Source: Oscillospiraceae bacterium
GTDB taxonomy: Bacteria; Bacillota; Clostridia; Oscillospirales; Ruminococcaceae
Reading direction: 5' to 3'
DNA length: 64,000 nt
Assembly: GCA_022508965.1 (NCBI GenBank)
Contig: JAFLUD010000002.1
Span: 1-64,000, forward strand
This document shows, one piece after another, positions 54,244 to 60,266 of this stretch (within the stretch, counting starts at the first letter, position 1; every line of letters starts with the position of its first letter). A program made the position numbers and the translations under genes. The notes under the pieces are model-generated. The model ran no database searches. It saw nothing but the letters and a program-made list of their open reading frames with translations, and had not been told where the DNA came from.

Positions 54244-56196
54244 TTATTGGTTTATGGTCTCCATTGCTGAAATAATGAATTTCACGAAGTCCTCTTTACA
54301 TACGGGCTTGGAGAAGAAATAGCCTTGAATGAAATCGCATTTGAGGCTGGAGAACGTCTCGACCATTTCGCGGGTCTCTATTCCCTCAACTACAATTTCC
54401 ATCTGCATATCCTTGAGCATTTTTACGGTGTTCTGCAAAACGATCCACATCTTGGGATTGTGCTGATCGTCAACAAACGATTTGTCGAGCTTCACTATCT
54501 TCAGCGGAAGCGAGATAACGCGCTTCATGTTGGAATAACCGGTGCCGTAATCGTCCAGCGAGAACGACAGCCCCGCGCGCGACAGCTTGTTGAGGTTTTC
54601 GGTCATTACTCTCTGGGTGTAGGAAGCCGCGGTTTCGGTGATCTCGAGGTTTATGCTGTCGGGAGAAACATTGTATTTCTTCATTGTCGCAAGAATATCA
54701 TTCGCAAGATCGCTGTGCATACACTGAGCAACCGAGAGATTCACCTCGATGTAATCCAGATCCAGCCGCTTATATTCCTCACTGGAAATAAACTTGCAGA
54801 CCTCTTCAAAAACGTACTTTCCGATCTTGTGGATAGCTCCGCTCTTTTCGGCGGCAGTTATAAGAATCTCGGGAGAAATGAACCCGTGTTCCTCGTCAAA
54901 CAGCCTGATAAGCGCCTCCGCGGAGACGAACTTCCCGCGCTCGGTGGAATAGATCGGCTGATAGTATACCTGAAAGCTGTTCTTTTCGAGAGCGCGTTCG
55001 ATTATCGTGTCGATGTTGTTCTGGATCATGAAATCCTTGGCGTTGTATACCTCCGAGGCTTTCATAACCTGACCGGTGTACGGGTGCTTGTCGTGGAAAT
55101 CGTTCCCAAACGCCATAAGCGACTTGAAGCTCTCGATCTCCTCGGGGCAGCGCGCCAGCACAACATACGGCGTGAGGTTCAGATCAAAGCCGTTAAAGCG
55201 CGAGCGCATCTTGAACTCGTTCATGACGTATTCCGCCGCCATCTCCGCCTTGTCGCGGTCGCCCTCGTTGAACACCATTCTAAAGCGGCCTCTGTCCAGA
55301 TAATACAGCATACAGCTGCACTTGAGACTTTTCGCGATCATTTCCAGTCTGGCAGAAATTGATTGCAGCAGCTCTATCGACGACTCGTAGCCGATCATAT
55401 TCTGAATAGTGGGGTAGTTGCCGATGTTCAGCATAACGATATTGACGTGCTTGCCGTTCTCGAAGGTGCGCTTAAGATCAAACGCGTAGGCTGCCTGCTT
55501 GTATAGTCCCGTGTAGGAATCTATGTAGTCCTCCGGGCGCTGAACTCCGACGCTTACCGACAGCAGCGAGATAGCGATCGCGAAGGTCTCCACGCGAAGC
55601 ACCGGCACGAGAACGTGAATTATTACCGCGATAAGCACCAGCGTCGCCATAGAGCAAAGGGAGACAATTCTCCTGAAGCCAAGCTGTTTGCGGTGCTGGA
55701 AGATGTATACAAAATCCGCGGTCAAGTACGGTATCAGGCAGACGTAGACCGCGTCAAAGAGGATCGCGTGCTCATAGCCGCCGTCAACGGTAAATATCCA
55801 ATTTGTGATGGGGTCGGTCGCAACAAGCAGGAAAAGCAAGGAATACGGCAGCATCAGCAATATCTTCTGGGGAAGGCTCTTGCGGACCTTATGCCAGATG
55901 TCCGTAAGGCTGATTACGAAGAACAAATGCAGCGGACCCTGGAGGTTGTGGAAGAGAAGATAAACGATATGTACAAAATAGATCCAGAACTTGCTTGACT
56001 CGTTGCTGTCGACAACCACTATAAGCACATCAAAAACGCAGGCTATCATTCCCGCGAATATTGACGCCAAAAACAGATGATTGGTGGTGCCTTTTGTCAT
56101 CTTGCGGAATACGAGGGAAATAATCAGAACACCCATCACGATAAGTCCCGCCATGTCAAACGAGGCTTTTAGCAGAATAGCCGAAACAGCTGACAT
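54244..56196 (-). CDS. membrane EAL-domain c-di-GMP phosphodiesterase with degenerate GGDEF
   Basis: 650 aa; multi-TM N-terminus; EAL signature SAEALIRLFDEEHG, LDDYGTGYSNM, VEGIE; GGDEF position reads LDRGRFR. Confidence 0.92.
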   Translation of the reverse strand: MSAVSAILLKASFDMAGLIVMGVLIISLVFRKMTKGTTNHLFLASIFAGMIACVFDVLIVVVDSNESSKFWIYFVHIVYLLFHNLQGPLHLFFVISLTDIWHKVRKSLPQKILLMLPYSLLFLLVATDPITNWIFTVDGGYEHAILFDAVYVCLIPYLTADFVYIFQHRKQLGFRRIVSLCSMATLVLIAVIIHVLVPVLRVETFAIAISLLSVSVGVQRPEDYIDSYTGLYKQAAYAFDLKRTFENGKHVNIVMLNIGNYPTIQNMIGYESSIELLQSISARLEMIAKSLKCSCMLYYLDRGRFRMVFNEGDRDKAEMAAEYVMNEFKMRSRFNGFDLNLTPYVVLARCPEEIESFKSLMAFGNDFHDKHPYTGQVMKASEVYNAKDFMIQNNIDTIIERALEKNSFQVYYQPIYSTERGKFVSAEALIRLFDEEHGFISPEILITAAEKSGAIHKIGKYVFEEVCKFISSEEYKRLDLDYIEVNLSVAQCMHSDLANDILATMKKYNVSPDSINLEITETAASYTQRVMTENLNKLSRAGLSFSLDDYGTGYSNMKRVISLPLKIVKLDKSFVDDQHNPKMWIVLQNTVKMLKDMQMEIVVEGIETREMVETFSSLKCDFIQGYFFSKPVCKEDFVKFIISAMETINQ

Positions 56197-56416: not shown

Positions 56417-58363
56417 TTAAATGAACGCGTAGTTCGCTTTACCGCTCTTCTTAACGGAGTACATCGCGTCGTCGGCTTTACCGATGAGGTACTCAACACG
56501 GGTGTTGTAGTCGTCCTTGATAACCGCGATACCGATGGAGCAACTTACGGAGAGCTTTTCGCCGATGTCCGCGTCAAAGCCCGCAGCCAGGGTGTCGATT
56601 ATCTTCTGAGCGATCTCAGCGGGCGCGTTTGTCTCGGCGTTTCTGATCATAGCAATAAACTCGTCGCCGCCGTATCTTCCCGCAAATCCCGCGTCGCCCA
56701 CGGTCTGCTTTATTGTCTTTGCAACAAACTTCAGAACCTGGTCGCCTGTCGCGTGAGAGTAGTTATCGTTGAAGTGCTTGAAATCGTCAACGTCTATGAA
56801 CAGAACCGCCATCTCGGTCTTACGCATCTCGGACAGCGAGATCTCGTTGTCGATCTGAGTTTCGATAGTTTCACGGTTGTACAGCTCGGTAAGCGCATCG
56901 TAGCTTGCACGCTCGGTGAGCTGCTGCTCGGACTTCTTCGCACGGTCGATATCCAGCATAACTCCGACAACCTTACTGGGCTTGCCGTCGCTGCCGTTGA
57001 GGGTAGCCGTTCTCATCAGTACCCAGATGAAATCGCCGTAGATGTTCTTTATGCGGTATTCGTTGCGCTCGAAGTTCTTGCCCTTTTCGAGAGCGTCGAG
57101 ATCGTTTCTGTATCTGTCAACGTCATCGGGGTGGAGCTTAGCCTTCAGCAGGAAGCTGTCGCCGAAGTGATCGGACGGCGCGCGGTAGCTGAACTTCTTG
57201 TTGAAGTTGTTGGAGAATACGACCTCGTTGGTCTTAAAGTTCCACTCGAAGATGATGTTGTCCGACATATCCGAAATGGTCTTGTATCTGTCCTCGCTGA
57301 CAACGATCTCGTCAACAAGGCTGTTAAAGGAACGGGAGAGCTGTCCGTATTCGTTGTTGCTGATAGTGCCGATACGCGCCTCGTGGTCGCCGCGGCGGAT
57401 CTTATCGAGGGTCTCCTGGATCTTCTTAAGGGGCGAAATGATCGTGTTGGAAGCTATTGCGGCTGCAATAATGCTCACGATCGCAAGCAGGATAGCCGCT
57501 ACATAAAGGGGCGGGATCGCGCTTCCGTAGAAAGAGCCGTTCATGCTGTCGAGACAGCTCGCTATTGCAACAAGTCCGTTTTCTCCGCCGACCTTTACAA
57601 GAGCGGCGAGGTTGTTGTCGCTTCCGTTCTGGTAAGAAATTATCTCGGAAACGGCGTTGTCCGAAAGAGAATCAATCTTGCCTGTTACGGCAGAGGTGTA
57701 GGTGGAATCGAGGTTCTCCTTCAAGTAGAACAAGCCCGAGCCTGCCGACCAACTGCCCTTGGAATCAACTATAACAACTCTTCCGTTAGCCTTACCGGAG
57801 GTATCGAAGCCGGTATTGCTCAGTGCCTTGGAGATAAGAGCATCGGATTCTTTGGTGTCATAAGAGATCATCGCTGTGTATGAACCGACCTTCTGCTTTA
57901 TGAACATACTGTCCATCTTATTGCTGTCGTTTCCGCTTGCAACTGCGTCAAAATAGAGCGCGCCGTCGGAATATCCGGCATACTGGCTGAAGTTCGCAAC
58001 AGACCTGCCCTCGCCGTCGCCGGCAAGAACAACTCCGTCAGAGCCGATGATCCTAACCGCCGAGATCATAGTGTTGCCCTCTTTGAGCTGCTTTACGAAA
58101 TCTTTCGTTGCATCGTCAAAGCTGCCCGAAGCTGCGGCAGATTTCAAAGGCTCATAAGAAGTAACCTTTTTCAAGTCCGCCTTGGCAGTATCCAGCATCG
58201 CCTGGAGTGCGGTGGTCTGGTTTGAAGCCATGCTTATTACTTCTTTTCTGTACTGCTCGGACGAGTCTTTTTTAATGAAATAATCCGACAGGAACACACG
58301 CGCTACCATCGGTATGATCGCGAAGCATATCGCCGCGATTATGATGATTATTTTTATTTTCAT
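56417..58363 (-). CDS. diguanylate cyclase with extracytoplasmic sensor, HAMP and PAS
   Basis: 648 aa; TM-sensor-TM, HAMP-like SNTIISPLKKIQETLDKIRRGDHEARI, PAS, GRYGGDEFIAMI. Confidence 0.93.
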   Translation of the reverse strand: MKIKIIIIIAAICFAIIPMVARVFLSDYFIKKDSSEQYRKEVISMASNQTTALQAMLDTAKADLKKVTSYEPLKSAAASGSFDDATKDFVKQLKEGNTMISAVRIIGSDGVVLAGDGEGRSVANFSQYAGYSDGALYFDAVASGNDSNKMDSMFIKQKVGSYTAMISYDTKESDALISKALSNTGFDTSGKANGRVVIVDSKGSWSAGSGLFYLKENLDSTYTSAVTGKIDSLSDNAVSEIISYQNGSDNNLAALVKVGGENGLVAIASCLDSMNGSFYGSAIPPLYVAAILLAIVSIIAAAIASNTIISPLKKIQETLDKIRRGDHEARIGTISNNEYGQLSRSFNSLVDEIVVSEDRYKTISDMSDNIIFEWNFKTNEVVFSNNFNKKFSYRAPSDHFGDSFLLKAKLHPDDVDRYRNDLDALEKGKNFERNEYRIKNIYGDFIWVLMRTATLNGSDGKPSKVVGVMLDIDRAKKSEQQLTERASYDALTELYNRETIETQIDNEISLSEMRKTEMAVLFIDVDDFKHFNDNYSHATGDQVLKFVAKTIKQTVGDAGFAGRYGGDEFIAMIRNAETNAPAEIAQKIIDTLAAGFDADIGEKLSVSCSIGIAVIKDDYNTRVEYLIGKADDAMYSVKKSGKANYAFI

Positions 58364-58569
58364 AGATTCTCCCCATTTCTGCTGATAGACTACCCATTCA
58401 ACAAGAGTGTATCTTTATTATATCATAAAAAAATCCATCTGTAAACACTTAAATCACCTCTTAAGGGCATTTTTTTTAATTTTATGAATTTTTCACAAAT
58501 TATTCAATCCTATTTTGTGAAAGTTACATTGTGCAAGCGAAAAAATCTTAAATACTTGGATTTTGGGTA

Positions 58570-58598
58570 TTGAATATAATCTTAGTTTGTGATATAAT
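58570..58598 (+). promoter_or_regulatory. promoter of the MSQDDIE-repeat protein
   Basis: TTGAAT - 17 nt - TATAAT. Confidence 0.7.
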
Positions 58599-58637
58599 TA
58601 AAGTGCGGTAATAATCATCGCGTAAAGGAGAGAGATT

Positions 58638-60266
58638 ATGGGAAGCGTGCTTAAAGGGAACAGATACAGGCTGGTGGACAATCGCTCGTTTGATTTGCCG
58701 CTGCCTATGAAATACGTTCTGCTGAAAGAGGACACGGAAATAGCGGAATATGAGGTCTTGCAGGATGAGAGTGTTACCTGCAAGATAATTACTAAATTCA
58801 AAGAGGATATGATCACGCCTATCCACCGTCCGCTGACCATTTCCGATATCTACTATTTCCTTTCGAGCAGGATCTTTCAGGACAATACTCCGTTTACATA
58901 TTCCGAGCTTTCTTTGCTCGGCATGGACAAATACAACGTCTATGACATAGTCCGCAAGACGCGCGGAGTTACTCCGTATGACGCCTACTGGCTCAGATTC
59001 GACGGGGACAAATGCGACTATGAGACCGCGAAAAATCACTGGAACGATCTGATGTCCAACATTCACCCGGAATCCTCAAAAGTCGAGCCGGCACAGGCGG
59101 AAAAGAAGGTTTCCAAGTCCGACGCCAATGTAAAAGAAATTCTGAGCCAGCACAAGGTGGACGTTGCGGCGAAGTTTGCCGAAACCCCCGCCGAAGTTCC
59201 CGCGGCTCCCCCAGAAACTTCTCAAGAAGAACCCAAGTCCGGCGGAACTATGTCGCAGGACGATATCGAGAGACTGCTTGCCGGCGTTGACGCGGATGCA
59301 GGATCCGCGCTCGAGGCTCCTGCGGAGGAACCTAAATCGGGCGGAACTATGTCTCAAGATGATATAGAGAAAATGCTCGCAGCGGCGACTGCGGCTGTTG
59401 AACCCGAACTTATTTCCGAACCCGCTCCCGAGTCTGTTGAGGAGGCTCCCGCAGAAGCTCCCAAAGAAGAGCCGAAGTCCGGCGGCAAGATGTCTCAAGA
59501 CGACATAGAGAAGATGCTCGCGGCGGCTACCGCGGCTGTTGAACCCGAGCTTATTTCCGAACCGACCCCCGAGCCTGTTGCGGAGGCTCCCGCGGAAACT
59601 CCCAAAGAAGAGCCGAAGTCCGGCGGCAAGATGTCTCAGGACGACATAGAGAAGATGCTCGCGGCGGCTACTGCGGCTGCCGAGCCGGAGCTTATTTCCG
59701 AGCCTGCTCCCGAGCCCGTTGCGGAGGCTCCCGCGGAAGCTCCCCCGGAAACTCCCAAAGAAGAGCCGAAGTCCGGTGGGAAGATGTCTCAGGACGATAT
59801 AGAGAAAATGCTTGCTGCGGCTACTGCGGCTGCCGAGCCGGAGCTTATTTCGGAACCCGCTCCCGAGCCCGTTGCGGAGGCTCCCGCGGAAACTCCCAAA
59901 GAAGAGCCGAAGTCGGGTGGGAAGATGTCTCAGGACGACATAGAGAAGATGCTCGCTGCGGCTACTGCGGCTGCCGAACCGGAGCTTATTTCCGAGCCCG
60001 CTCCCGAACCTGTTGCGGAGGCTCCCGCGGATGCTCCCAAAGAAGAGCCGAAGTCCGGCGGGAAGATGTCTCAGGACGACATAGAAAAAATGCTTGCGGC
60101 GGCTACTGCGGCTGCCGAATCGGAGCTTATTTCCGAGCCCGCTCCCGAACCTGTTGCGGAGGCTCCTGCGGAAACTCCCAAAGAAGAGTCGAAGTCCGGC
60201 GGGAAGATGTCTCAAGCGGATATCGAGGCGCTGCTCAACGGCATGAAAGAGGACGCCGGAACCTAA
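58638..60266 (+). CDS. repeat protein with eight FliM/FliY-N-peptide-like motifs
   Basis: 542 aa; ~190-aa globular N-terminus then tandem EEPKSGGKMSQDDIEKMLAAATAA..PEPVAEAPAETPK units, last unit GGKMSQADIEALLNG. Confidence 0.85.
   Translation: MGSVLKGNRYRLVDNRSFDLPLPMKYVLLKEDTEIAEYEVLQDESVTCKIITKFKEDMITPIHRPLTISDIYYFLSSRIFQDNTPFTYSELSLLGMDKYNVYDIVRKTRGVTPYDAYWLRFDGDKCDYETAKNHWNDLMSNIHPESSKVEPAQAEKKVSKSDANVKEILSQHKVDVAAKFAETPAEVPAAPPETSQEEPKSGGTMSQDDIERLLAGVDADAGSALEAPAEEPKSGGTMSQDDIEKMLAAATAAVEPELISEPAPESVEEAPAEAPKEEPKSGGKMSQDDIEKMLAAATAAVEPELISEPTPEPVAEAPAETPKEEPKSGGKMSQDDIEKMLAAATAAAEPELISEPAPEPVAEAPAEAPPETPKEEPKSGGKMSQDDIEKMLAAATAAAEPELISEPAPEPVAEAPAETPKEEPKSGGKMSQDDIEKMLAAATAAAEPELISEPAPEPVAEAPADAPKEEPKSGGKMSQDDIEKMLAAATAAAESELISEPAPEPVAEAPAETPKEESKSGGKMSQADIEALLNGMKEDAGT
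59226..60266 (+). repeat. in-frame tandem repeat array, ~141-bp period (one 153-bp unit)
   Basis: Eight copies of EE(P/S)KSGG(T/K)MSQ(D/A)DIE at protein level, high nucleotide identity. Confidence 0.93.

Follow-up and report, generated by a model that had tools for sequence, protein, structure and literature searches.

The window, that is, the whole stretch of 64,000 nt analyzed here, carries on its plus strand a gene at 58638-60266 whose open reading frame of 542 aa has no internal break when translated. The protein consists of a HipA-N-like domain, a linker, and eight units resembling the docking peptide of FliM and FliY. The repetitive part (59226-60263, plus strand) was delimited by tandem repeat detection, motif pattern, and profile, and follows the scheme [Pro/Glu/Ala linker - SGG(K/T) - MSQ(D/A)DIE..], with the MSQ(D/A)DIE motif starting at residues 205, 238, 285, 332, 383, 430, 477, and 524 (n = 8). 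Motif pattern and position-specific scoring matrix (PSSM) mark each copy as a putative docking peptide on the same strand: copy 1, MSQDDIERLLAG, at 59250-59285; copies 2 to 7, all MSQDDIEKMLAA, at 59349-59384, 59490-59525, 59631-59666, 59784-59819, 59925-59960, and 60066-60101; and copy 8, MSQADIEALLNG, at 60207-60242, which is nearest to FliM and forms a C-terminal cap conserved across the genus. The preliminary description of an array of eight motifs on one protein is thus exact in coordinates and translation.

At the DNA level, the array is a 141-bp tandem repeat of 6.1 copies with 89% match. A degenerate DNA motif pattern has 8 matches in the 2.0-Mb genome, all within the array gene, and none for the reversed control. 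The pN/pS ratio of the motif core is 0.016 for the six inner copies and 0.098 for all eight, compared to 0.11 for the linker. The codon differences in the core between copies are almost all silent, indicating that the peptide is under purifying selection. The full-length structural model (mean pLDDT of 51, indicative only) has a helix at every one of the eight motifs, separated by linkers of low confidence, so a short helix within a disordered segment, as in a docking peptide, is predicted at low confidence. All Pfam and NCBIfam matches on the full protein sit on the repeat copies and are low-complexity artifacts. Single-unit searches of NCBIfam and PDB sequences gave no match, the top PDB match (a PKS fusion protein, E value of 0.56) being taken as chance.

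The gene is flanked at most loci by a divergent HAMP-PAS-GGDEF diguanylate cyclase gene, here at 56417-58363 on the minus strand. This neighbor is conserved beside the array gene at 27 loci and is retained where both array and flagella are gone; it may link the array to c-di-GMP. In this species, a protein with a degenerate GGDEF domain and an EAL domain (54244-56196) adjoins the cyclase, giving a c-di-GMP pair beside the array. A search for a sigma-28 promoter box upstream of the array gene found none, and a sigma-A-like -10 element is present instead. The region between the divergent genes (58364-58637) holds an inverted pair, TTCACAAA ... TTTGTGAA, conserved in several species and possibly an operator or a divergent promoter element.

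The N-terminal domain and the junction

The preliminary description placed a globular domain of ~190 aa ahead of the array; the folded part proved to be shorter, covering about residues 15 to 142 (58680-59063, plus strand), and residues 143 to 199 are modeled as a low-confidence linker. An AF2 model built with 29 homologues shows a mixed alpha/beta fold (pLDDT of 78, pTM of 0.72). Its best consistent Foldseek matches in the PDB are HipA and HipS, with E values of ~0.1 and probabilities up to 0.85, which are weak alone. A blast match of the N region (E value of 2.8e-4) is a protein with an HTH and a HipA-like kinase, and hhalign comparison of the domain with ten HipA-like N-terminal regions is significant (probability of 96.4, E value of 1.2e-9, 105 columns). 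The fold of HipA N-subdomain 1 is thus recovered weakly by structure and significantly by profile-profile comparison, which makes the N domain a relative of the lid domain found at the N terminus of HipA-like kinases. Pfam gave no match for the N domain, nor did a viral fold library. In HipA, N-subdomain 1 is a lid on the kinase, and HipS is a split-off version of it (PMC8262856). This kinship suggests that the N domain is probably a protein-binding module. The array chain has no kinase core, and no hipT-like or HTH partner was recognized beside the conserved loci; in view of the missing kinase, we read the domain as a repurposed protein-binding module.

Between domain and array lies a short conserved stretch, SDANVKEILSQHKVDVAAKFAE / SDANVKEILSQHKVDVAAKF, at residues 160 to 181 (59115-59180, plus strand), in which I168, L169, Q171, H172, K173, and D175 are invariant among ten homologues. 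It forms short helices in the full-length model and is perhaps a second linear motif.

Kinship of the repeat unit with FliM and FliY peptides

In the motor ring, each FliM or FliY subunit is known to contribute a single docking peptide. The motif of these peptides, LSQxEIDALL or EIDALL, binds CheY-P (PMC6700473, PMC9126983). An HMM built from FliM peptides only, run over the open reading frames of the neighborhood, did not recover the array at significance, so we turned to a decoy-controlled PSSM and to a profile derived from the array itself. The PSSM was built from six FliM peptides from outside the genus and compared with 82,397 decoy 12-mers. Copy 8 scores above every decoy, bearing out the earlier impression that the last copy is especially close to FliM; the other copies rank at about 11 to 30, with the inner copies in the top 0.04%. 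The scores of the inner copies are only moderate, and MSQDDIEKMLAA differs from the host's own FliM peptide (LTQAQIDEMLKS; LTQAQIDEML); this counts against a docking function.

A scan of 391 genomes of the class with the unit profile (cutoff of E <= 1e-4) gave matches outside the array family in two genomes only, both in FliY. One of these FliY proteins (genome G338, L178) has two units, GSGGGVLSQEEIEKLLSG...SSGGALSQAEIEKLLAG, in the linker between its CheC-like and FliN-like domains, and the other (genome G256, L179/L180) has at least three tandem copies of SSGGTLSQEEIEKLMSSMNGDAEPEPEPTP in the same linker, spread across a contig break. FliY of another genus of the same family (G044) carries one linker unit, LSQAEIEALLNG / SSGATLSQAEIEALLNG, with an E value of 2.8e-5. 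The unit thus shares its sequence type with LSQxEIDALL, since its profile reaches FliY units and copy 8 ranks first against the decoys. The proposed likeness to FliM/FliY withstood the possibility of an unrelated repeat family, for the blind profile matches outside the family at E <= 1e-4 are all FliY, and the search for further arrays in the 391 class genomes yielded orthologues in the genus and, beyond them, only the two FliY proteins with tandem copies. The array unit is a relative of the FliY linker unit.

The position of the peptide in FliY varies. It lies at the N terminus in two genomes (G061 and G086), as published for Bacillus subtilis. FliY of G086 (L165) has, ~55 residues after its N-terminal peptide, a similar motif, MLTSDEIAAMFSS, and a FliY-like open reading frame in G058 (L146) apparently encodes two consecutive CheC-type modules in a single chain. 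None of the about 31 readable FliY proteins of the array-bearing genus has a docking peptide, suggesting that the docking function is provided in trans. In several related genera, FliY is peptide-free and the array was likewise not found. These genera weaken the idea that the array replaced the FliY peptide, and relocation from FliY is not proven.

Distribution in the genus and association with flagella

Orthologues of the N-terminal 194 aa (E < 1e-49) were found in 33 of the 43 genomes of the genus and nowhere else among 57 relatives. Three further genomes (G003, G020, and G041) retain the tail of an array truncated by the end of a contig, so an array gene with 3 to 10 units is present in 36 of the 43 genomes of this genus of uncultured Oscillospiraceae. 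Complete genes have about 3 to 10 motifs each; the genomes are all drafts, and the arrays frequently break contigs. The named records are metagenome-assembled genomes of uncultured Oscillospiraceae/Ruminococcaceae, and the labels of several point to the gut of rabbits ("Lapin") or deer. With few exceptions, the array ends in a copy similar to GGKMSQ(D/A)DIEALLNGMKEDA, and in several species a unit variant such as KMLAAA, ALIAAQ, or ALFAAN is common to all inner copies within one species, a uniformity that has the appearance of concerted repeat evolution. Many orthologues (L015, L017, L021, L036, and others) begin the array with an additional, variant unit, NN(T/K/M)M(S/T)ADEIEALLxKSGL, which is absent from the gene in the window.

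The preliminary description noted the lack of flagellar genes; this holds for the 64,000-nt window, where blast detected no flagellar or chemotaxis gene, but not for the genome, which has a full flagellar and chemotaxis set on other contigs. The search that had been proposed for such genes located FliM, FliY, and CheY (the last at L005:6526-6888) on one contig (C100) and CheA also in the host genome, and the host CheY is close to that of Thermotoga maritima (E value of 2e-40). Within the genus, the array gene is present in 36 of the 38 genomes with FliM and in none of the 5 without it (Fisher p of 2e-5, uncorrected for kinship). Four genomes (G002, G005, G007, and G010) lack FliM, CheA, and the array gene, and their loci still hold the GGDEF, RelA, and cytidylate kinase genes. 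In a tree of the GGDEF neighbor, these four flagella-less genomes group as a single clade within the array bearers; the joint loss of array, flagella, and CheA is one clear event, not several. The fifth genome (G038) lacks FliM and keeps CheA, so its missing FliM may reflect incomplete assembly; flagellar loss is firm only for the four-genome clade. Gene order links the array to motility as well. In one species (G011), FliM-FliY-CheY-...-FlhA-flagellar sigma factor-FlgF/G-CheC-CheD is followed by the divergent GGDEF and array genes, and in another (L058) RelA comes next after the array gene, succeeded by an FlhB-like gene, an unassigned 785-aa open reading frame, CheA, CheW, and CheR. By gene content, specific loss, and synteny, the array gene is linked to the flagellar/chemotaxis system.

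Proposed role, alternatives, and known relatives

What could a chain of eight putative docking peptides do? We propose, with a probability of roughly two in three, that this freestanding protein offers CheY-P a multivalent array of docking sites, serving as an antenna for the motor switch or as its competitor. By analogy with FliM and FliY, the units most likely bind CheY-P. Each unit would be a CheY-docking peptide of the FliM/FliY type that lacks order on its own and becomes helical upon binding, and a flexible acidic/Pro-Ala linker would carry it. The N domain would anchor the array to a partner in the switch or chemotaxis machinery, which is a guess, and the array could then gather several CheY-P molecules on one chain. 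As an antenna, it might act in trans, supplying both FliM and the phosphatase FliY with CheY-P, again a guess. Conservation of the N domain favors this anchored antenna. The fuller proposal, namely an undescribed, motor-independent CheY-P array of 3 to 10 peptides on a repurposed HipA-N domain, in which the FliY peptide moved and multiplied in trans and became tunable by copy number, is one on which we are evenly divided.

Among the alternatives, a soluble sink or buffer comes first: a cytoplasmic array would soak up CheY-P, compete with FliM, and lower or smooth switching, possibly tuned by c-di-GMP. The absence of any FliM middle, CheC, or FliMN_C domain by Pfam, or of another switch domain, on the array protein keeps a sink in play, and the many peptides on one chain and the GGDEF gene kept alongside at 27 loci fit it too. 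The conserved N domain and the separate conserved stretch, however, suggest specific attachment, and survival of the GGDEF gene after loss of array and flagella indicates that cyclase and array are not obligate partners; we consider a sink rather unlikely. Still less likely is that the units merely resemble the docking peptide and bind a partner other than CheY-P, either a different protein with a receiver domain or a part of the flagellum, such as the export apparatus or domains of FliY/FliM. The drift of the inner units from the host FliM peptide is in keeping with such a partner, as is the report that T. maritima FliY has no higher affinity for activated than for inactive CheY (PMC7355467). 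Yet near-identical units sit in FliY linkers, the C-terminal copy is close to classic FliM, and CheY, CheA, and FliM are all present in the host genome. The kinship of the N domain with the HipA N-subdomain and HipS could point to a toxin-antitoxin component whose repetitive tail is unrelated, but with no kinase domain on the chain, no hipT-like or HTH partner recognized next to it, and a presence that tracks flagella, this is very improbable. A chance or low-complexity repeat without function has a negligible probability despite the low complexity of the Pro/Glu/Ala-rich linkers, given purifying selection on the motif, genus-wide conservation, and specific loss with flagella.

If the docking array is real, a gut lineage has gained a distinct component, tunable by copy number, that acts between the flagellar switch and CheY-P. 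Detached from the motor and variable in copy number, such an array would exert its own control over CheY-P, and its features suggest a soluble scaffold, antenna, or sink of a novel kind for the CheY signal. A FliM peptide is reported to have a Kd of 27 uM (PMC9126983), and natural variation in the array family could show how switching sensitivity depends on the number of such weak sites for CheY-P. The multi-peptide FliY linkers of other Clostridia would share this theme. A word search of the open-access literature found no paper describing such a docking-peptide array.

The closest relative among known systems is FliY, the CheC-type switch phosphatase of Firmicutes, whose linker units, [acidic/Pro linker - SSGG - LSQEEIEKL(L/M)SG], are nearly identical to those of the array. 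FliY of the three other genomes has one to at least three tandem linker copies, compared to 3 to 10 in the array protein, and its docking peptide is N-terminal in B. subtilis but lies in the linker in the genomes found here; unlike FliY, the array protein has a HipA-N-like domain and neither CheC nor FliMN_C. The N-terminal FliM peptide (FliMN) shares the pattern [LM][ST]Q..I[DE]..[LM]L, most visibly in the last copy, MSQADIEALLNG, but FliM is a C-ring subunit with one peptide at its extreme N terminus, whereas the array holds eight, internal and C-terminal, on a nonswitch protein. HipA N-subdomain 1 and HipS resemble the N domain in fold and profile, yet the array protein has a partner kinase neither in its own chain nor in an adjacent gene. 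Archaeal CheF, too, is an adaptor on a protein of its own, which binds CheY-P and thereby connects it with the motor (PMC9126983). The analogy is functional only and claims no similarity. CheF meets CheY through a helical-bundle interface, whereas the proposed contact of the array would be made by repeated peptides.
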